From: Planctomycetota bacterium
GTDB taxonomy: Bacteria > Planctomycetota > Phycisphaerae > Phycisphaerales > UBA1924
Reading direction: 5' to 3'
DNA length: 64,000 nucleotides
NCBI GenBank assembly: GCA_033763975.1
Contig: JANRJM010000001.1
Span: 62,001-126,000, forward strand
Shown here in pieces: positions 50,901 to 58,847 of the stretch. Positions within the stretch are counted from its first letter, which is position 1. Every line of letters starts with the position of its first letter. Below the pieces are notes generated by a model. It had not been told where the DNA came from. It made no database searches and saw nothing but the letters and a program-made list of their open reading frames with translations. The position numbers and the translations under genes are program-made.

Positions 50901-51818
50901 ATGCAGGTCACTCTCAAGCCGCTGGACCAGCAGGTCATGGTCCTCACGGGGGCGTCGAGCGGGATCGGCCTGGCGACCGCGCACGCCGCGGCGGAGCGGG
51001 GCGCCGCGGTCGTCCTCCTGGCGCGCAGCGCGCAGGCGATCACCTCGATCGCCGAGGACATCCGGGGGGCGAAGGGGCGGGCCCTCGCCGTGCCGTGCGA
51101 CGTGTCGGATCGCGTGCAGGTCGAGACGGCGGCGCGTGCGGCGATCAACGCCTTCGGGCGATTCGACACCTGGGTGAACAACGCCGGGGTCTCGATCTTC
51201 GGGCGCATCGAAGAGGTGAGCCAGGAGGACGCGCGGCGTCTGTTCGACACCAACTTCTGGGGCGTGCTCAACGGGTGTCTGGCGGCGCTCCCGCACCTCA
51301 AGCGGTCCGGCGGGGCGCTGATCAACGTCGGCAGCGAGGTGTCGGAGGCGGCGCTGCCGTTGCAGGGCATCTACGCAGCGTCGAAGCACGCCGTGAAAGG
51401 GCTGACCGACACGCTGCGGATCGAGGTGTGCGAGGTGGAAGAGGCGCCGGTGGCGATCACGCTGATCCAGCCGACGGCGGTGAACACGCCGTACCCCGTG
51501 CACGCGCGGAACTACATGGCGCGCGAGCCCAAGCTGCCGACGCCGCAGATCGGGCCGGAGCGCGTCGCAGAGGCGATCCTCGACGCGGCTCAGAAGCCGA
51601 CGCGCTACGCAAAGGTCGGGGCCATGGCGTCGATCAACACCGCGATGGCCAAGGTGATGCCGGGCCTGGCCGACCGGATGGCCGCCAAGCAGGTCGACCG
51701 GCAGCAGGAGCCCTTTCCGGCGATGCACCGCGCCGGGGCGCTGCACCTGCCGTCCGACACGACGGGCAGCGTCGGCCAGGTGCACGGCACGCCATCGCCC
51801 GACGACACGCGCCGATAG
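50901..51818 (+). CDS. Short-chain dehydrogenase/reductase
   Basis: A 305-residue classical SDR with an added tail. The cofactor motif VLTGASSGIGLATAHAAAER lies near residues 14-33, NNAG in FDTWVNNAGVSIFG, and the catalytic Ser and YxxxK are in INVGSEVSEAALPLQGIYAA followed by SKHAVKG. After the fold, about 50 residues (QVDRQQEPFPAMHRAGALHL) are unlike other SDRs. The substrate is unknown. It ends 29 nt before the promoter of the histidine operon but is not part of it. Confidence 0.88.
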   Translation: MQVTLKPLDQQVMVLTGASSGIGLATAHAAAERGAAVVLLARSAQAITSIAEDIRGAKGRALAVPCDVSDRVQVETAARAAINAFGRFDTWVNNAGVSIFGRIEEVSQEDARRLFDTNFWGVLNGCLAALPHLKRSGGALINVGSEVSEAALPLQGIYAASKHAVKGLTDTLRIEVCEVEEAPVAITLIQPTAVNTPYPVHARNYMAREPKLPTPQIGPERVAEAILDAAQKPTRYAKVGAMASINTAMAKVMPGLADRMAAKQVDRQQEPFPAMHRAGALHLPSDTTGSVGQVHGTPSPDDTRR

Positions 51819-51847
51819 GTCGGCGCGGCGGCCCGCGGGACCACTGC

Positions 51848-51875
51848 TTGACACGGAACAGACGGCGGCTATCGT
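51848..51875 (+). promoter_or_regulatory. Promoter of the histidine operon
   Basis: A perfect TTGACA (51848-51853), a 16-nt spacer and TATCGT (51870-51875). Transcription should start at about 51882-51884, at or within two bases of the leader peptide ATG. Confidence 0.85.
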
Positions 51876-51883
51876 TGCCCGCA

Positions 51884-51943
51884 ATGACGCCCGTGCCGCA
51901 GCATTCCCACCATCATCATCACGCGTTCCGCGTGGCCGGATGA
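51884..51943 (+). CDS. hisL: his operon leader peptide with six histidines
   Basis: A 19-codon ORF, MTPVPQHSHHHHHAFRVAG, ending in TGA at 51941-51943. Histidines are codons 7 and 9-13 (51902-51904 and 51908-51922). The ATG lies 8 nt past the -10 element, so the peptide is probably translated from a leaderless mRNA; no Shine-Dalgarno could fit. It lies directly in front of a hairpin and the complete histidine biosynthesis operon. By analogy with enterobacterial hisL, a ribosome stalling at the His codons when charged tRNA-His is scarce would change the RNA fold downstream. The peptide itself has no other expected role. Confidence 0.85.
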   Translation: MTPVPQHSHHHHHAFRVAG

Positions 51944-52006
51944 TGGTGCGCTGAGGCGAAAGCCAACCTGAACGCGACCATCAACGCCGGCCAAGTGCCG
52001 GCGTTG
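51933..52006 (+). terminator. his attenuator: terminator hairpin and competing antiterminator pairing
   Basis: The terminator stem is a perfect 10 bp (51982-51991 with 51997-52006, loop CAAGT), followed by a weakly T-rich TGCGTTGT. An alternative pairing, TGGCCGG (51933-51939, the Val-Ala-Gly codons of the leader) with CCGGCCA (51987-51993), is a perfect 7 bp and would destroy that stem. A third hairpin (51941-51951 with 51974-51983, 10 bp with one bulge) overlaps the stem by two bases. A ribosome stalled at the His codons leaves 51933-51939 free, giving antitermination; one at the stop codon covers it, giving termination. Confidence 0.7.
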
Positions 52007-52046
52007 TGCGTTGTAGGGCGCGCACGACCCCGGTGCTGATGCCGGC

Positions 52047-52949
52047 ATGGAGCAGACCATGCCGCCGAACACGACCGAAGGACCGGGAACGCCCGCGCTG
52101 CTGCGCATGGCGCTCCCGAAAGGACGGATGCAGCCGGGCGTGTTCGCCCTGCTTGCGGACGCAGGGATCGACGTGCGCGTGGGCGCGCGCGGGTATCGCC
52201 CGCAGGTGTCGCTGGAGGGCGTGGACGCGAAGATCCTCAAGCCGCAGAACGTGGTCGAGATGCTCGCCGCGGGGTCGCGGGACATCGGCTTCGCGGGCGC
52301 CGACTGGGTGGAAGAACTGGGGGCGGACCTCGTCGAGGTGCTCGACACGGGGCTCGACGCGGTGCGGATGGTGGCGGCGGCGCCGGCGGGGGCGCTCGTC
52401 GGCGGGCGTCTCGCCCGCACGCCGCTCGTGGTGGCGTCGGAGTACGAGCGCCTCACCCGCCGGTGGATCGAGTCCAACGGGCTGGAGGCGCGGTTCGTGC
52501 TGTCGTACGGCGCGACGGAGGTCTTCCCGCCCGAGGACGCGGACTGCATCGTCGACATCACGGCGACCGGCGAGACGCTGCGGGCGCAGCACCTGGTGGT
52601 GTTCGACGAACTCATGCGCTCGTCGACGCGCGTGTACGCGAGCCCGCGAGCGATGGCCGATCCGGTGCGCCGCGGCGCGGTCGAGCGCCTGGTGATGCTG
52701 CTGCGCTCGGTGCTCGAGGCCCGCCAGCGTGTGATGATCGAGGTGAACGTGTCGGCCGAGGCGCTGGGACGCGTCATCGAGGGGCTTCCGTGCATGCGTG
52801 AGCCCACGATCTCGCCCCTGCACGCGCAGGCGGGGTTCGCGGTGAAGGCGGCCGTGCCCCGCAACCGCCTGCCGGCGCTCATCCCGGAGCTCAAGCGACG
52901 CGGGGGTACGGACCTGGTGGTGTCGCACCTCTCGCAGATCGTGCCATGA
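52047..52949 (+). CDS. hisG: ATP phosphoribosyltransferase, long form
   Basis: First step of histidine synthesis, ATP plus PRPP to phosphoribosyl-ATP; normally feedback-inhibited by histidine. The 300-residue length and the C-terminal ACT-like domain (about 220-300, VMIEVNVSAEALGRVIEGLP, then GFAVKAAVPRNRLPALIPEL) identify the long form HisG(L), which does not need HisZ. Catalytic parts include RMALPKGRM, DIGFAGADWVEELG and the PRPP loop CIVDITATGETLRAQ. ATG 52047 lies 40 nt past the attenuator stem; no good Shine-Dalgarno. Its stop overlaps the hisC start. Confidence 0.95.
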   Translation: MEQTMPPNTTEGPGTPALLRMALPKGRMQPGVFALLADAGIDVRVGARGYRPQVSLEGVDAKILKPQNVVEMLAAGSRDIGFAGADWVEELGADLVEVLDTGLDAVRMVAAAPAGALVGGRLARTPLVVASEYERLTRRWIESNGLEARFVLSYGATEVFPPEDADCIVDITATGETLRAQHLVVFDELMRSSTRVYASPRAMADPVRRGAVERLVMLLRSVLEARQRVMIEVNVSAEALGRVIEGLPCMREPTISPLHAQAGFAVKAAVPRNRLPALIPELKRRGGTDLVVSHLSQIVP

Positions 52950-54361
52950 TGAACACGACCGCCGCACACACGGGGCGCGGGGACATCGGTCTGTCGTGGG
53001 CGCAGGGCGAGCCGCCCGGCGCCTACGCGCCGCCGAGCGCACCCTGGCCGATCGACCTGGCGCTCGACGCGAACGAGGGGGCACCCGCCGGCATCGGCAC
53101 GCTCACGCTGCCGGCGCACGCGGGGGCCGACGTGCTCCGCCGATACCCCGGGGCCGGCACGCTCGAGGCGCTCATCGCGGCGCGCGCGGGTATCGACCCC
53201 GGGCGCGTGCTCGTCACCGCCGGGGGCGACGAGGCGATCGACCGCGCGTGCCGCGTGGCGCTCGGGCCGGGTAGACGCATGGTGCTGCCGGTGCCCACGT
53301 TCGAAATGATCGAGCGGTACGCGCAGGGCGTGGGCGCCGAGATCGTGCGCGTGCCGTGGCCCTCGGGCCCCTTCCCCGCAGATGAGGTGCTGCGGCGCAC
53401 GGACGACAGCACCGCGATGATCGGCGTCGTGTCGCCGAACAACCCCACCGGCGGGGTGGCGTCCGCCGAGGACCTCGCGCGCGTGTCGGCGGGGGCGCGC
53501 GGCGCGCTCGTCATGGTCGACCTGGCCTACGCCGAGTTCGCCGACGAGGACCTCGGCGCCGCGGCCATCGCCCTTCCGAACGCGATCATCATCCGGACGT
53601 TCTCGAAGGCGTTCGGGCTGGCGGGCATCCGCGTGGGGTATGCCATCGGCCCGGAGCGCGTCATCCGCGCCATGCGGGCCGCGGGCTCGCCATTCCCTGT
53701 CTCGGGCACGAGCCTGTTGGTGGCGTCCGAGGCGTTGCGCACGGCGGACGCGTGGCTGCCCGAGAGTGTCGCACGGGTACGCGAGATGCGACGACGGCTC
53801 GCGGCGGTCTTGGTCGAGATCGGCGCCGAGCCCGTGCCCTCCCAGGCCAACTTCGTGCTCGCGGAGTTTCGCGACGCCGCCTGGGTATGGCGGGCGCTCG
53901 CCTCGCTGGGCATCGGTGTCCGGTCGTTCGCGAGTCGGCCGGGGCTCGAGCGCTCGCTGCGCATCACGTGTCCGCCCGACGACGCGTCGTGGCAGCGCCT
54001 GCACCGCGCGCTGCACGCGGCGGCACGCCCGCGGGCGCTCGTGCTCGATCTCGACGTCGTCGGCGCGGCCTCGGACTGGCCCGCGCGCCTTGCGCGCCGG
54101 CTCCCGGTCGAAACTGTCACCGATCGCGATGCAGCGTCCCTGCCGGGCCCGGCAGCGGTCCGCGCGACGATGACGCGACTGGGTGTCGAGCACGCGTGGA
54201 TGATCGCGGGCTCGCCGGCGAGCGTGCGGGCCGCGCGTGCGGCGGGTGTGCCCGCGGTCGGCGTCGCGATGACGGGTGACGAGGGACGAGCGGCGCTCGA
54301 GGCCGCGGGTGCGGCCCGGGTCGTCGATGACCTGACCCGGGTAGAGGAGATGCTCCCATGA
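52946..54361 (+). CDS. hisC: Histidinol-phosphate aminotransferase fused to a reduced HAD-like domain
   Basis: Residues 1-358 are HisC, a PLP enzyme converting imidazole-acetol phosphate to histidinol phosphate. Visible motifs are LDANEGAPAG, VVSPNNPTGG, VDLAYAEF and the PLP Lys221 in RTFSKAFGLAGIRVGYAIG. Residues 361-471 look like a shrunken HAD phosphatase: motif I LVLDLDVVG (Asp368, Asp370), and WMIAGSPASVRAARAAGVPA where a HAD enzyme would have GDSPxD. The motif IV aspartates are therefore missing and the cap is very short. The operon has no other histidinol-phosphate phosphatase. The HAD part is either a divergent phosphatase or a non-catalytic remnant. ATGA overlaps on both sides. Confidence 0.88.
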   Translation: MMNTTAAHTGRGDIGLSWAQGEPPGAYAPPSAPWPIDLALDANEGAPAGIGTLTLPAHAGADVLRRYPGAGTLEALIAARAGIDPGRVLVTAGGDEAIDRACRVALGPGRRMVLPVPTFEMIERYAQGVGAEIVRVPWPSGPFPADEVLRRTDDSTAMIGVVSPNNPTGGVASAEDLARVSAGARGALVMVDLAYAEFADEDLGAAAIALPNAIIIRTFSKAFGLAGIRVGYAIGPERVIRAMRAAGSPFPVSGTSLLVASEALRTADAWLPESVARVREMRRRLAAVLVEIGAEPVPSQANFVLAEFRDAAWVWRALASLGIGVRSFASRPGLERSLRITCPPDDASWQRLHRALHAAARPRALVLDLDVVGAASDWPARLARRLPVETVTDRDAASLPGPAAVRATMTRLGVEHAWMIAGSPASVRAARAAGVPAVGVAMTGDEGRAALEAAGAARVVDDLTRVEEMLP

Positions 54362-54951
54362 CGGAACGCACGGCGACCATTGAGCGCTCGACGCGGGAGA
54401 CGGCGATCACGGTGTCGGTCCGTCTTGATCGCGCGGGCGGGTCCGCGATCGGCACGGGCCTGGGCTTTCTCGACCACATGCTCACCGCCCTGGCGACCCA
54501 CGCGCGGATGGGCCTCGACGTGCGATGCACGGGCGACCTCGACGTTGACGACCATCACACGGTCGAGGACTGCGCAATCGCGATCGGGCAGGCCCTGGAC
54601 GCCGCCCTGGGCGATCGGCGCGGCGTGGCGCGCTTCGGATCGGCCTACGCCCCGCTCGATGAGTCGCTCGCGCGCGCGGTCGTTGATCTCTCGGGGCGCG
54701 CGCACGCGACGGTGCACCTGGGCCTGCGGCGCGACCGCCTCGGCGCGGTCGCGTGCGAGAACATCACGCACTTCTTCGCGTCCGTGGCCGCGTCGGCGCG
54801 CCTCACGCTTCACCTTGACGTGCTCCGGGGCGAGAACGACCACCACAAGGCGGAAGCGGCGTTCAAGGCCTTCGCGCTCGCGCTGCGGGCGGCGGTTGCG
54901 CGAGTGCCGGGGATCGACGACGTGCCCTCGACCAAGGGGACGCTGGCATGA
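54358..54951 (+). CDS. hisB: Imidazoleglycerol-phosphate dehydratase
   Basis: A 197-residue monofunctional dehydratase (no N-terminal HAD phosphatase domain, unlike enteric HisB). It removes water from imidazoleglycerol phosphate. Both Mn-binding motifs are present: DDHHTVEDC near residue 62 and NDHHKAEAAFKA near 160; GLGFLDHMLTALATHARMGL and FASVAASARLTLHLDV are further family stretches. It overlaps hisC and hisH by 4 nt on either side. Confidence 0.96.
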   Translation: MTERTATIERSTRETAITVSVRLDRAGGSAIGTGLGFLDHMLTALATHARMGLDVRCTGDLDVDDHHTVEDCAIAIGQALDAALGDRRGVARFGSAYAPLDESLARAVVDLSGRAHATVHLGLRRDRLGAVACENITHFFASVAASARLTLHLDVLRGENDHHKAEAAFKAFALALRAAVARVPGIDDVPSTKGTLA

Positions 54952-55568
54952 CGGCGCGCGCGGTGACGATCATCTCGACGGGCGTGGCGAACACGGCGTC
55001 GGTGGCGGCGGCGTTCCGCCGGTGCGGGGCGCTCGTCGACATCACCGACGACCCCGCGCGCGTGCACGACGCGGCGCGCGTCGTGCTGCCGGGCGTTGGG
55101 TCGTTCGGCGCCGGCATGGCCGGCCTGCGTGCACGAGGACTCGCGGGCGTCATCGAGCGGCGCGTGCGCGCCGAGCGCCCGCTGCTGGCGATCTGCCTGG
55201 GCCTGCAGATGCTGTGTGTCTCGTCCGAAGAGTCGCCGGGCGAGCGCGGGCTCGGCCTGATCGACGCGCCGGTGCGGCGCTTTCCCGAGGGCGTGCGATG
55301 CCCGCAGTTCGGGTGGAACGACGTCGTCGCGGACGGCGCGTGCCGCCTCGTCCGCGCTGGCTGCGCGTACTACGCGAACTCCTACCGCATCGCGCAGCCG
55401 CCGGGCGGCTGGGCGGTTGCGACGACGGACCACGGGGGCCCGTTCACCGCGGCGGTGGAGCGCGGCGGAGTGCTGGGGTGCCAGTTTCACCCGGAACTCT
55501 CCGGCGCCTGGGGACGCGAACTGCTCGCACGCTGGCTGGAGTGCGACGCGGGAGGACGCGCATGCTGA
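54948..55568 (+). CDS. hisH: Imidazole glycerol phosphate synthase, glutaminase subunit
   Basis: A 206-residue class I glutamine amidotransferase that feeds ammonia to HisF. The catalytic triad is Cys83 in LLAICLGLQMLC, His181 and Glu183 in GCQFHPELSG. LPGVGSFGAGMAGL is the N-terminal oxyanion-related motif. It overlaps hisF by 7 nt, consistent with a stoichiometric HisH-HisF complex. Confidence 0.96.
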   Translation: MTARAVTIISTGVANTASVAAAFRRCGALVDITDDPARVHDAARVVLPGVGSFGAGMAGLRARGLAGVIERRVRAERPLLAICLGLQMLCVSSEESPGERGLGLIDAPVRRFPEGVRCPQFGWNDVVADGACRLVRAGCAYYANSYRIAQPPGGWAVATTDHGGPFTAAVERGGVLGCQFHPELSGAWGRELLARWLECDAGGRAC

Positions 55569-56320
55569 AGCGTCGCATCATTCCCTGCCTGGACGTTCGG
55601 GCCGGGCGCGTCGTCAAGGGCGTGCGCTTCGCGGGGCTGCGCGACGCGGGCGATCCCGCCGAACAGGCGGCCCGGTACGAGGCGCACGGCGCCGACGAGA
55701 TCGTCATCCTCGATGTCTCGGCGACTCCCGAGGGGCGCGAGACCGCGGTCATGACGATCGCCGCCGTGCGCGCCGTGCTGTCGATCCCGCTGACGGTGGG
55801 GGGCGGCGTGCGCAGCGTCGAAGATGCGGCACGCCTGCTGCGCGCGGGGGCCGACAAGGTCGCGGTGAACACCGCGGCGGTGGAGCGTCCCGCCCTCATC
55901 GCCGAGCTCTCGGCGTGGGCGGGGGCGCAGTGCGTGGTGCTGGCGCTCGACGCCGCGCGGCACGGGGCGGGCGAGCGGTGGGAGGTCGTCACGCGGTCCG
56001 GGGCGCAGCGCACCGGGCTGGATGCGCCGTCGTGGGCCGGGCGCGCGGAGGAACTCGGCGCCGGCGAGATCCTGCTCACGAGCTGGGACCGCGACGGGAC
56101 GGGCGCCGGATACGACCTCGATCTCATCCGCGGGGTCGCGGCGCGCGTGCGCGTGCCGGTCATCGCATCGGGCGGGGCGGCGGGTGTCGAACACATGGGG
56201 CTGGCGTTCGACGCCGGGGCCGATGCGGTGCTTGCCGCGTCGGTGTTTCACGATGGGGTGCTCACGGTGGAGGGCGTCAAGGCCGCGCTCGCGCAGCGCG
56301 GCGTGGAGGTGCGTCGATGA
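55562..56320 (+). CDS. hisF: Imidazole glycerol phosphate synthase, cyclase subunit
   Basis: A 252-residue (beta/alpha)8 barrel making imidazoleglycerol phosphate and AICAR. Catalytic Asp11 (RRIIPCLDVRAGRVVKGVRF) and Asp130 (CVVLALDAARHG) are present, with phosphate-binding PLTVGGGVRS, EILLTSWDRDGTGAGYDLDL and VIASGGAAGVEH. ATG 55562 fits the conserved N-terminus exactly. ATGA overlap with hisA. Confidence 0.97.
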   Translation: MLKRRIIPCLDVRAGRVVKGVRFAGLRDAGDPAEQAARYEAHGADEIVILDVSATPEGRETAVMTIAAVRAVLSIPLTVGGGVRSVEDAARLLRAGADKVAVNTAAVERPALIAELSAWAGAQCVVLALDAARHGAGERWEVVTRSGAQRTGLDAPSWAGRAEELGAGEILLTSWDRDGTGAGYDLDLIRGVAARVRVPVIASGGAAGVEHMGLAFDAGADAVLAASVFHDGVLTVEGVKAALAQRGVEVRR

Positions 56321-57588
56321 TTGTGCCGTCGATCGATCTTCTCGGTGGCAGAACGGTGCAGCTCGTGGGGGGTGAGCGGCTGTCGCTCGAGGCGGGCGAC
56401 CCGCGTCCCATCGCCGAGCGGTTCCGGGTCGCGGGCGAGATCGCGGTGGTGGATCTCGACGCCGCTCTCGGGAGCGGGAGCAATGCGCCGATGGTCCGCG
56501 ACCTTCTGCGCGTCGCCCGGTGCCGTGTGGGTGGCGGGATCCGCGACGAGCGCACGGCGATCGAGTGGCTCGACGCGGGCGCGAGCTCGATCGTGCTGGG
56601 GACCGCGGCGACGCCGGACCTGCTCCGGCGCCTGCCCCGCGAACGGGTCATCGCCGCGCTCGACGCCCGTGACGGTGAGGTCGTCGTCGAGGGATGGAAG
56701 ATCGGGACCGGCGAGACCATCATCGATCGCATGCGACGGCTCGAGGGGCTCGTCGGCGGGTTTCTCATCACGTTCGTCGAGCGCGAAGGGCGCCTGGGGG
56801 GAACGCGCCTGGACCTCGTGCCCGCGCTCGTCCGCGCGGCGGGCTCGGCGCGCGTCACGATCGCCGGCGGGATCACCACCGCGCGAGAGGTCGGCGTGCT
56901 CGACGAGATGGGCGCCGACGCGCAGGTCGGCATGGCGCTCTACACGGGCCGGCTGGACCTCGCGGACGCCATCGGCGCTCCGCTCCGCAGCGACCGTCCC
57001 GACGCCCTCTGGCCGACGGTCATCGTCGATGAACTCGGGGTGGCGCTCGGGCTGGCATACTCCAGCGCCGACAGCCTTCGGGACGCCGTGCGAACGCGCC
57101 GGGGCGTGTATCACTCCCGAACGCGCGGGCTGTGGGTCAAGGGCGCAACATCCGGCGACACGCAGGAGCTGATCGCGGTCGACGTCGACTGCGACCGCGA
57201 CTGCCTGCGGTTCGTTGTCCGCCAGCGGGGGCGCGGGCATTGCCACCGCGGGACGCGCACGTGCTGGGGCCCGCACGCCGGGCTGCCCGCCCTCGCGGAC
57301 CGCATCGACCGTGCCGCCGCGATCGGGGAGCCGGCGTCGTACACGGCGCGCCTGCTCGCGGACCGCGCGCTGCTGAACGCGAAGCTGCGCGAAGAGGCGG
57401 TCGAACTCGGCGAGGCGAGCGTGGCGGAGGACGCGGTGCACGAGGCCGCGGACGTGCTGTACTTCACGCTCGTCGCGCTCCGGCGCGCGGGGAAGACGCT
57501 CGCGGACGTCGGCGCCGAGCTCGACCGGCGCGCCCTGCGGATCACGCGTCGGGGTGGCGACGCCAAGCCGGGAGGGAGCGTGTCATGA
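56317..57588 (+). CDS. hisA: HisA-HisI-HisE trifunctional fusion
   Basis: One uninterrupted 423-residue frame carries three enzymes. Residues 1-222 are HisA, the ProFAR isomerase barrel (Asp7 in MIVPSIDLLGG, Asp116 in AALDARDGEVVVEGWKIG, TIAGGITTAREVGVL). Residues 230-322 are HisI, PR-AMP cyclohydrolase (GVYHSRTRGLWVKGATSG, metal-binding DVDCDRDC, GHCHRGTRTC). Residues 323-410 are HisE, PR-ATP pyrophosphatase (LNAKLREEAVELGEA, HEAADVLYFTLVALRRAG). HisIE fusions are common; fusion of HisIE to HisA is not an arrangement I know as standard. It would combine steps 2, 3 and 4. All motif residues look intact. It overlaps hisF and hisD. Confidence 0.95.
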   Translation: MIVPSIDLLGGRTVQLVGGERLSLEAGDPRPIAERFRVAGEIAVVDLDAALGSGSNAPMVRDLLRVARCRVGGGIRDERTAIEWLDAGASSIVLGTAATPDLLRRLPRERVIAALDARDGEVVVEGWKIGTGETIIDRMRRLEGLVGGFLITFVEREGRLGGTRLDLVPALVRAAGSARVTIAGGITTAREVGVLDEMGADAQVGMALYTGRLDLADAIGAPLRSDRPDALWPTVIVDELGVALGLAYSSADSLRDAVRTRRGVYHSRTRGLWVKGATSGDTQELIAVDVDCDRDCLRFVVRQRGRGHCHRGTRTCWGPHAGLPALADRIDRAAAIGEPASYTARLLADRALLNAKLREEAVELGEASVAEDAVHEAADVLYFTLVALRRAGKTLADVGAELDRRALRITRRGGDAKPGGSVS

Positions 57589-58847
57589 GCACGCCGTTGC
57601 TGCGGCCCGTCCTGCCCGAGGCGTGCACGCTCGAGCGTCGAAGCCCCATCGATCGTGGCACGTGCGTCGAGGTCGCGCGCATTCTCGAGGACATCGAGGC
57701 GCGGGGCGAACCAGCCGTCCGCGAGCACGCGGCGAGGCTCGGCGATCTCGAGATCGGTCGGGCGTGTGTGCACGATCGCGCGGCTCTCGACGCCGCACGC
57801 GACCGGCTTTCACCCCGCGAGCGCGACGCGATGGAACGCGCGGGCGCGCGGATCCGCGCGTTCGCGCGGCTGCAGCGGGATTGCATCCGCGATCTGGACG
57901 CGTCGATCGAGGGCGGGCGTGCCGGGCACACCTGCATCCCGGTCAACTGCGCCGGGTGCTATGCGCCGGGCGGGCGATTCCCGCTGCCGTCGTCCGTCCT
58001 CATGACCGCCATCACCGCACGGGCCGCGGGAGTCGAGGTCGTGTGGATTGCATCGCCCAGGCCGACCGACGCGACGCTCGCGGCGGCGTCCATCGCCGGC
58101 GCGGACGGTCTGCTCGCGCTCGGGGGAGCGCAGGCGATCGCGGCGATGGCGCTCGGTCTGTGCGGCGTGCCGGCGTGCGACATGATCGTCGGTCCCGGCA
58201 ATCGGTGGGTGACCGCCGCGAAGTTCCTGCTCTCCGACCGGGTGGGCATCGACATGCTCGCCGGGCCGTCCGAACTCGTCGTGCTCGCCGATGACTCGGC
58301 CGACCCGGCACTGGTGGCGGCCGACCTGTTGGCGCAGGCGGAGCACGACGAGGACGCGCTGCCCATTCTCATCTCGACCGACGCGACGCTGCCGGGGCGC
58401 GTCGATGAGCATCTCTCGGGGATGCTCGTGTCGCTGCCGACGCGTGCCACGGCTCAGGCCGCGCTGCGCAACGGGTTCAGCGTTGTGGTTCGCGACATAG
58501 ACCGCGCGATCGAACTGTGCGATGCGATCGCGCCCGAGCACCTGGAGATCATGACGCGAGACGCGAGCCGCACCGCGGCGCGGGTCCGCAACGCGGGCGC
58601 GGTGTTCGTCGGGTCGGCGTCGGCCGAGGTGCTCGGCGACTATGGCGCGGGCCCGAACCACGTGCTCCCGACCGGGGGGACGGCTCGTTCGCGCGCGGGC
58701 CTTTCGGTGTTCTCGTTCCTGCGCCCGCGGACGTGGCTGGACATCCAGGCGCGCACGCCGTCGGTGCGGCTGTCGCAGGACGCGCAGACGCTGGCGCGGG
58801 TGGAGGGGCTGGAGGCCCACGCGCGGGCGGCTGGCCTGCGGATGTAG
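57585..58847 (+). CDS. hisD: Histidinol dehydrogenase
   Basis: Last enzymes of the pathway, histidinol to histidinal to histidine with two NAD, 420 residues, Zn-dependent. Family motifs: CAGCYAPGGRFPLPSSVLMT, VPACDMIVGPGNRWVTAAKF, DMLAGPSELVVLADD, ADLLAQAEHDEDALPILIST with the Zn ligands, and IAPEHLEIMTRD with the catalytic Glu-His. The end (GDYGAGPNHVLPTGGTARSR) is normal. ATG 57585 overlaps the hisAIE stop; its own stop is TAG. No terminator was found between it and the convergent anti-sigma gene 28 nt away. Confidence 0.96.
   Translation: MSTPLLRPVLPEACTLERRSPIDRGTCVEVARILEDIEARGEPAVREHAARLGDLEIGRACVHDRAALDAARDRLSPRERDAMERAGARIRAFARLQRDCIRDLDASIEGGRAGHTCIPVNCAGCYAPGGRFPLPSSVLMTAITARAAGVEVVWIASPRPTDATLAAASIAGADGLLALGGAQAIAAMALGLCGVPACDMIVGPGNRWVTAAKFLLSDRVGIDMLAGPSELVVLADDSADPALVAADLLAQAEHDEDALPILISTDATLPGRVDEHLSGMLVSLPTRATAQAALRNGFSVVVRDIDRAIELCDAIAPEHLEIMTRDASRTAARVRNAGAVFVGSASAEVLGDYGAGPNHVLPTGGTARSRAGLSVFSFLRPRTWLDIQARTPSVRLSQDAQTLARVEGLEAHARAAGLRM

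Follow-up and report, generated by a model that had tools for sequence, protein, structure and literature searches.

A predicted ribosome-mediated attenuator with a probably leaderless His-rich leader peptide before the his operon of Phycisphaerae

In enteric bacteria the his operon is preceded by hisL (Rfam RF00514), which, like the leader described here, combines a run of His codons in a leader peptide with a choice between terminator and antiterminator. The His codons of hisL take part in the pairing, as those of the present leader are predicted to do, whereas hisL has a 5′ UTR with a ribosome-binding site in place of the leaderless start proposed below. Ribosome-mediated his attenuation has been described in E. 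coli and other gamma-proteobacteria and, according to the available text of PMC9413887, predicted in three Firmicutes lineages. Like the present leader, the Firmicutes attenuators have a His-rich leader peptide with a terminator and an antiterminator before the his operon and are missed by RF00514; they differ in phylum, and in the same available text planctomycetes are unmentioned and leaderless starts are not raised (PMC9413887). In its available part, a survey of Actinobacteria did not find conserved RNA structures upstream of histidine operons (PMC1262725), and Korolev et al. 2016 give statistical counts of leader genes in Planctomycetes and, in the available text, name hisG for gamma-proteobacteria only (PMC4833913).

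Leaderless leader ORFs are known from Actinobacteria. The Cys-rich ORFs of mycobacteria resemble the present leader in being short, leaderless, rich in a run of the regulated amino acid and placed before an operon, and differ in amino acid (cysteine) and phylum; they have been proposed as attenuators, a role that the available text calls speculative (PMC4633059). The ilvBNC operon of Corynebacterium glutamicum, likewise actinobacterial and concerned with branched-chain amino acids, has a three-hairpin attenuator that the available part of PMC11857589 discusses with leaderless initiation. Attenuation and leaderless leader ORFs are thus known separately, and we did not find their combination in the open-licence literature searched. 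In the titles and abstract beginnings of that literature we recognised no Planctomycetes his attenuator and no leaderless his leader peptide, and an earlier prediction is possible. Canestrari et al. (2020) are said to have studied the mycobacterial Cys-rich ORFs experimentally, and Lopatovskaya et al. (2010) is reportedly a broad survey of attenuation.

The locus compared here with these systems lies in the window, by which we mean the whole 64,000-nucleotide stretch of DNA that was analysed; it comes from a 3.27-Mb genome in 19 contigs. We consider it highly probable, judging from the elements in Table 1 and their counterparts in relatives, that the DNA before hisG subjects the his operon to ribosome-mediated attenuation of transcription and that the leader peptide is read from a leaderless mRNA.

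Leader ORF, promoter and operon

The leader ORF encodes the peptide MTPVPQHSHHHHHAFRVAG, in which 6 of 19 codons specify His, five of them consecutively. An earlier note on this DNA had described such an ORF starting within 8 nt of a near-consensus promoter, with six His and five in a row, and the promoter positions and the translation of the ORF agree with both parts of that description. The promoter is the sole promoter-like site within 51400-52400 (mean of 0.1 in shuffles), and the long ORF upstream of it presumably encodes a relative of short-chain dehydrogenases. With 8 nt between the -10 hexamer and the leader start codon, usual promoter geometry would put the first transcribed base about 0-3 nt ahead of the leader AUG.

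Table 1. Features of the his leader region and operon (window coordinates).
Feature	Position	Strand	Basis or remark
Long ORF upstream of promoter	ends 51818		
Sigma-70-like promoter	51848-51875 (TTGACA 51848-51853, TATCGT 51870-51875)	+	16-nt spacer; 10/12 consensus bases
Leader ORF MTPVPQHSHHHHHAFRVAG	51884-51943 (ATG 51884, stop TGA 51941-51943)	+	ORF listing; leaderless by predicted promoter position
His codons of leader ORF	51902-51904 and 51908-51922	+	
Pre-emptor (1:2)	51908-51948 (His codons 51908-51917 with 51939-51948)	+	pairing analysis; 10 bp
Antiterminator (2:3)	51933-51993 (51933-51939/51987-51993 and 51941-51947/51977-51983)	+	two 7-bp helices, 1x3 internal loop
Terminator hairpin (3:4)	51982-52006 (51982-51991/51997-52006)	+	perfect 10 bp, GC-rich stem, 5-nt loop
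Poor U-tract TGCGTTGTAGGG	52007-52018	+	longest T run 2
hisG, first operon gene	52047-52949	+	Pfam HisG and HisG_C
hisC	52946-54361	+	Pfam
hisB	54358-54951	+	Pfam
hisH	54948-55568	+	Pfam
hisF	55562-56320	+	Pfam
hisA-I-E fusion, one ORF	56317-57588	+	Pfam PF00977, PF01502, PF01503
hisD	57585-58847	+	Pfam

To place the leader among relatives we analysed 130 hisG loci, made up of 80 from named genome records (the best 80 of 202 relatives) and 50 family loci; the latter include the window's own, and some genomes occur in both sets. A His-rich ORF, defined as being 8-45 codons long, having four or more His within eight codons and lying upstream of hisG, was found at 85 of the 130 loci (76 distinct leaders) and in 7 of 650 Markov-shuffled regions. 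It was present at 45 of the 50 family loci, one of the five misses (L124) having just 85 nt of upstream DNA, and at 40 of the 80 loci from the best-matching named records. The earlier note had proposed aligning the DNA upstream of hisG in related Phycisphaerae and had named the lack of a His-codon run and hairpin in relatives as the outcome that would speak against its reading; that outcome did not arise, and the His-codon run, the hairpin, the competing pairing and the predicted near-zero 5′ UTR are all conserved.

The 76 distinct leaders served for counts of promoters, Shine-Dalgarno signals and codons. In 68 of them, as compared with 130 of 1,520 shuffles, the leader start lay 5-11 nt beyond the end of the best promoter, the start codons having been picked independently of the promoter. 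Pairing with the anti-Shine-Dalgarno sequence upstream of the leaders averaged -1.17 kcal/mol, compared with -2.19 in shuffled sequence and -6.64 upstream of hisG (best of up to three starts), and the leaders thus have no Shine-Dalgarno signal before their start codon. The leader peptide is probably translated from a leaderless transcript, with the 5′ end set by the position of the promoter; alternatively, the transcript may start upstream of the predicted promoter. Among leaders from records titled as other phyla, mostly metagenome assemblies, a less strict scan placed the start 5-11 nt after a promoter in 11 of 14; some of the 11 score poorly for promoter, and L021, L042 and L060 are exceptions to the spacing. 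The earlier note had seen in translation from almost the first mRNA base a distinct variant of his attenuation. The predicted near-zero 5′ UTR is indeed conserved, and the claim holds in a milder form, because the apparently leaderless layout is shared by many members of this group and mycobacteria, too, have leaderless leader ORFs.

As a caveat, the leader frame of the window is without an in-frame stop across the roughly 380 nt of upstream DNA that were scanned, so that the mechanically delimited ORF is 51095-51943, and 44 of the 76 distinct leaders have an in-frame stop within 60 nt upstream. The his leaders of L115 and L116 have the usual promoter spacing, but 310-322 nt separate their ends from the HisG reference residue, as compared with 87-247 nt at the other positive loci.

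Downstream of the leader lies a complete his operon of seven genes (hisG to hisD, 52047-58847) in which every neighbouring pair overlaps, and a single attenuator could thus control them all. The hisC-like ORF encodes 471 aa, of which Pfam covers only residues 67-351; about 120 C-terminal residues lie outside the match. Histidine synthesis is patchy in the window's family, with hisG in 50 and hisD in 49 of 100 genomes; among the 79 genomes with a completeness of 90% or more, the counts are 40 and 39, respectively. The two further genomes of the genus that were searched (G002 and G075) are without hisG and hisD. The acetolactate-synthase-type domain PF02776, which all 14 of 14 controls contain, was not matched in the window's genome, where a single HMGL-like match was obtained; the organism may thus be unable to make branched-chain amino acids while retaining its his operon.

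Competing pairings and the predicted switch

Three mutually exclusive pairings, 1:2, 2:3 and 3:4, can be drawn in the leader RNA, as is characteristic of attenuators. Strand 2 extends from the last leader codons to beyond the stop codon, which lies within it. The perfect 10-bp terminator-like hairpin of the earlier note is present in the window. Its single 7-bp antiterminator was also found (51933-51939/51987-51993); it is only part of a larger structure, since a second 7-bp helix that can stack on the first had been missed. The 10-bp pairing of the His codons with strand 2 is an addition to that description. Against dinucleotide-shuffled sequence, the segment 51882-52046 as a whole folds better by 3.36 sd, and 1 shuffle in 200 equalled it; comparison with relatives speaks more strongly against chance.

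We assessed the pairings in an alignment (A1) of 22 leaders, picked for their window-like layout from the 72 that have a clear hairpin; its figures describe that layout rather than all leaders, and its shuffles ignore relatedness. The terminator was paired in 97.3% of cells (at most 65.5% when slid), with both sides changed in 5 of 10 pairs, and none of 500 shuffles attained its covariation score. For the pre-emptor and the antiterminator, 85.5% and 82.5% of cells were paired (at most 64.5% and 56.7% when slid), and the covariation scores, reached by 41 and 46 of 500 shuffles, respectively, were not significant. Covariation is thus significant for 3:4 only, and the support for the other two pairings is mostly conservation. 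The distance from the first base of the last His codon to strand 2 was 14 nt in 15 and 11 nt in 4 of the 22 leaders, about that of the leading edge of a stalled ribosome if its footprint is the A-site codon plus 11 nt.

According to the mechanism that we propose, a ribosome would load on the 5′ end of a transcript starting about 0-3 nt before the leader AUG. When histidine is short, it would stall on the His codons with its leading edge just before strand 2, which would then pair with strand 3; the terminator hairpin would be delayed or blocked, and the polymerase would enter hisG to hisD. When histidine is ample, the ribosome would reach the stop codon inside strand 2 and strand 3 would be left free to form the 10-bp hairpin, ending transcription before hisG. 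Without translation, the His codons would pair with strand 2 and the terminator would form too.

We folded the leaders with that same assumed footprint. Before strand 4 exists, the antiterminator of the window leader reached a probability of 0.86-0.97 with the ribosome on the His codons, and the pre-emptor 0.97 without a ribosome. Placing the ribosome on the last three codons brought the antiterminator to 0; the pre-emptor was absent as well, and the terminator then reached 0.99-1.00. In the finished RNA of the window, the terminator (0.43-0.48) and the first antiterminator helix (0.47-0.55) were nearly balanced when the ribosome occupied either of the last two His codons, and the terminator was favoured (0.76-0.96) when it occupied any of the other four. 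Across the alignment, a ribosome placed on the last clustered His codon left the terminator with an equilibrium probability of at least 0.9 in 18 of 22 leaders. As the equilibrium favours the terminator on most His codons, the predicted switch would have to be kinetic, as attenuator switching usually is. The expected folding pattern was obtained for 21 of 22 leaders but also for 69 of 220 control constructs in which strand 2 and the spacer had been shuffled; the test is permissive and is not our main evidence.

Alternative readings

The weak point that the earlier note had named, a poor U-tract, is real in the window: no T run downstream of the stem is longer than 2 nt, and a scan of 51400-52400 gave no terminator-like site. 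Both observations would suit a variant in which the same leader and stalling operate and the hairpin merely pauses the polymerase, uncoupling then causing termination by Rho or changing how accessible the hisG start is. For the group the doubt is less apt, as the median T run among the 72 leaders with a clear hairpin is 4, with at least 4 in 53 and a run as short as the window's in 10. Since the stem is also under pairing constraint and termination is the simplest output that the leaders could share, we regard this variant as unlikely.

A small functional peptide, for instance a metal-binding one, followed by an ordinary terminator or processing site would explain the richness in His, and ordinary terminators with a similar GACGCCGGC-like core occur after unrelated genes, so that the hairpin sequence alone proves little. 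The ORF nevertheless precedes hisG, the competing pairings involve its codons and its stop, and its non-His residues near the start vary freely between leaders. Codon choice also speaks against this reading: CAT and CAC are used 255 and 218 times in the 76 leaders, as opposed to 29 and 135 times in their hisG genes. The preference for CAT would suit pairing with ATG in strand 2, and slower decoding might also account for it. We therefore find a functional peptide very improbable in comparison with attenuation.

A riboswitch sensing histidine or tRNA, or a T-box, with the ORF incidental, hardly deserves consideration, as nothing was found in its favour, the His codons are conserved, the sole Rfam match in the window at the gathering score is a tRNA gene, and no T-box appeared at E ≤5 in ten loci including the window's. 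That a His-rich ORF and a hairpin should have come together by chance could draw on the far-open leader frame of the window, as is often seen in GC-rich frames, but is very improbable in view of the 85 positives among 130 loci, compared with 7 among 650 shuffled regions, and of the terminator covariation, promoter spacing and distance from His codons to strand 2 across relatives.

Distribution and relation to known leaders

The attenuation that we propose would escape current annotation. The Rfam scan of the window at the gathering score gave no His_leader or other leader, and neither did a scan at E ≤5 of 10 of 81 loci, the window's included. RF00514 (cut-off 49 bits) remained below its cut-off in all 100 family genomes, 17 of which had a match at E ≤1, the window's genome not among them; it exceeded the cut-off in 1 of 14 control genomes. 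Weak sub-threshold matches fell on his leaders of the present type in G073 (34.4 bits) and G087 (23.7 bits). The two best matches (L269 and L270) were rejected as his leaders, being without a His-rich leader and apparently ordinary terminators after other genes. Because His_leader stays below its cut-off, such his operons lack an attenuator annotation.

A search with our own model, R1, built from A1, gave one strong site in the window's genome, which is this leader, and a second match (E 0.0085) on the opposite strand of the same site; as the training included the window's sequence, only the uniqueness of the match is informative. In 397 genomes of the class, 56 had a match at E ≤0.001. Twenty chosen stretches were examined, of which 9 contained hisG. 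Among the 11 without it, one (L238) has a Phe-rich leader before a pheA-like gene, and in the other ten no amino-acid leader was seen, most being hairpins after the end of another gene. At L238 (G442:C1379, reverse strand) the leader ORF, MMRNAVHRFCWVFQFSFFASRGSPAMV, is apparently leaderless and is accompanied by an attenuator core resembling that of the his leader. The four closest pheA relatives (52-64% identity) gave no Phe leader of this type, and 30 scanned pheA loci contained a Phe-rich ORF in three cases, none with the L238 layout. The window's genome has two chorismate-binding genes, and no Trp leader was seen upstream of either.

Hairpins with a similar (A/G)ACGCCGG or GACCCCGG core also end unrelated genes at L226, L232, L233, L236 and others, and the terminator sequence of the attenuator may in part be a generic terminator of the group.

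Phylum-wide, a His-rich leader was found at 12 of 16 loci whose hisG shares 59% identity or more over the match (L169-L184, some of these genomes having been counted above) and at 3 of 30 with more distant hisG (L185-L195 and L199-L218 without L210, where hisG was not found), and the leader thus goes with one HisG lineage. On a HisG tree of 134 rows, 83 of them with a leader, the leader label was clustered, with 24 changes compared with a mean of 40.9 in shuffles (0 of 500 as low). The deep forks of the tree are weakly supported, and we therefore claim neither a single origin nor transfer. By record title, the phyla are Planctomycetota, Deltaproteobacteria/Myxococcota, Acidobacteria, Gammaproteobacteria, Armatimonadetes and Spirochaetota. 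A divergent planctomycete hisG at L205 (G517:C123) has a His-rich ORF, MHPEVHHHHHHHFKRVPVSGVN, that is preceded by GGAGGAG and for this reason probably not leaderless; it is perhaps an independent his leader.

Tentatively, and as something quite possible rather than likely, we propose a distinct family of leaderless his attenuators tied to one HisG lineage across several phyla, in which leaderless initiation would be selected because it brings the ribosome onto the control codons without delay and whose core could be refitted to another amino acid. That the present leader works like the enteric his attenuator is the interpretation supported by the comparative evidence, which would extend amino-acid attenuation, with good comparative support, to the Phycisphaerae. 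It suggests that reading a leader peptide from the first bases of the mRNA is the normal design of a his operon lineage and not a speciality of Actinobacteria, and it points to a stretch of about 125 nt in which leaderless initiation and the coupling of transcription and translation would need to cooperate.
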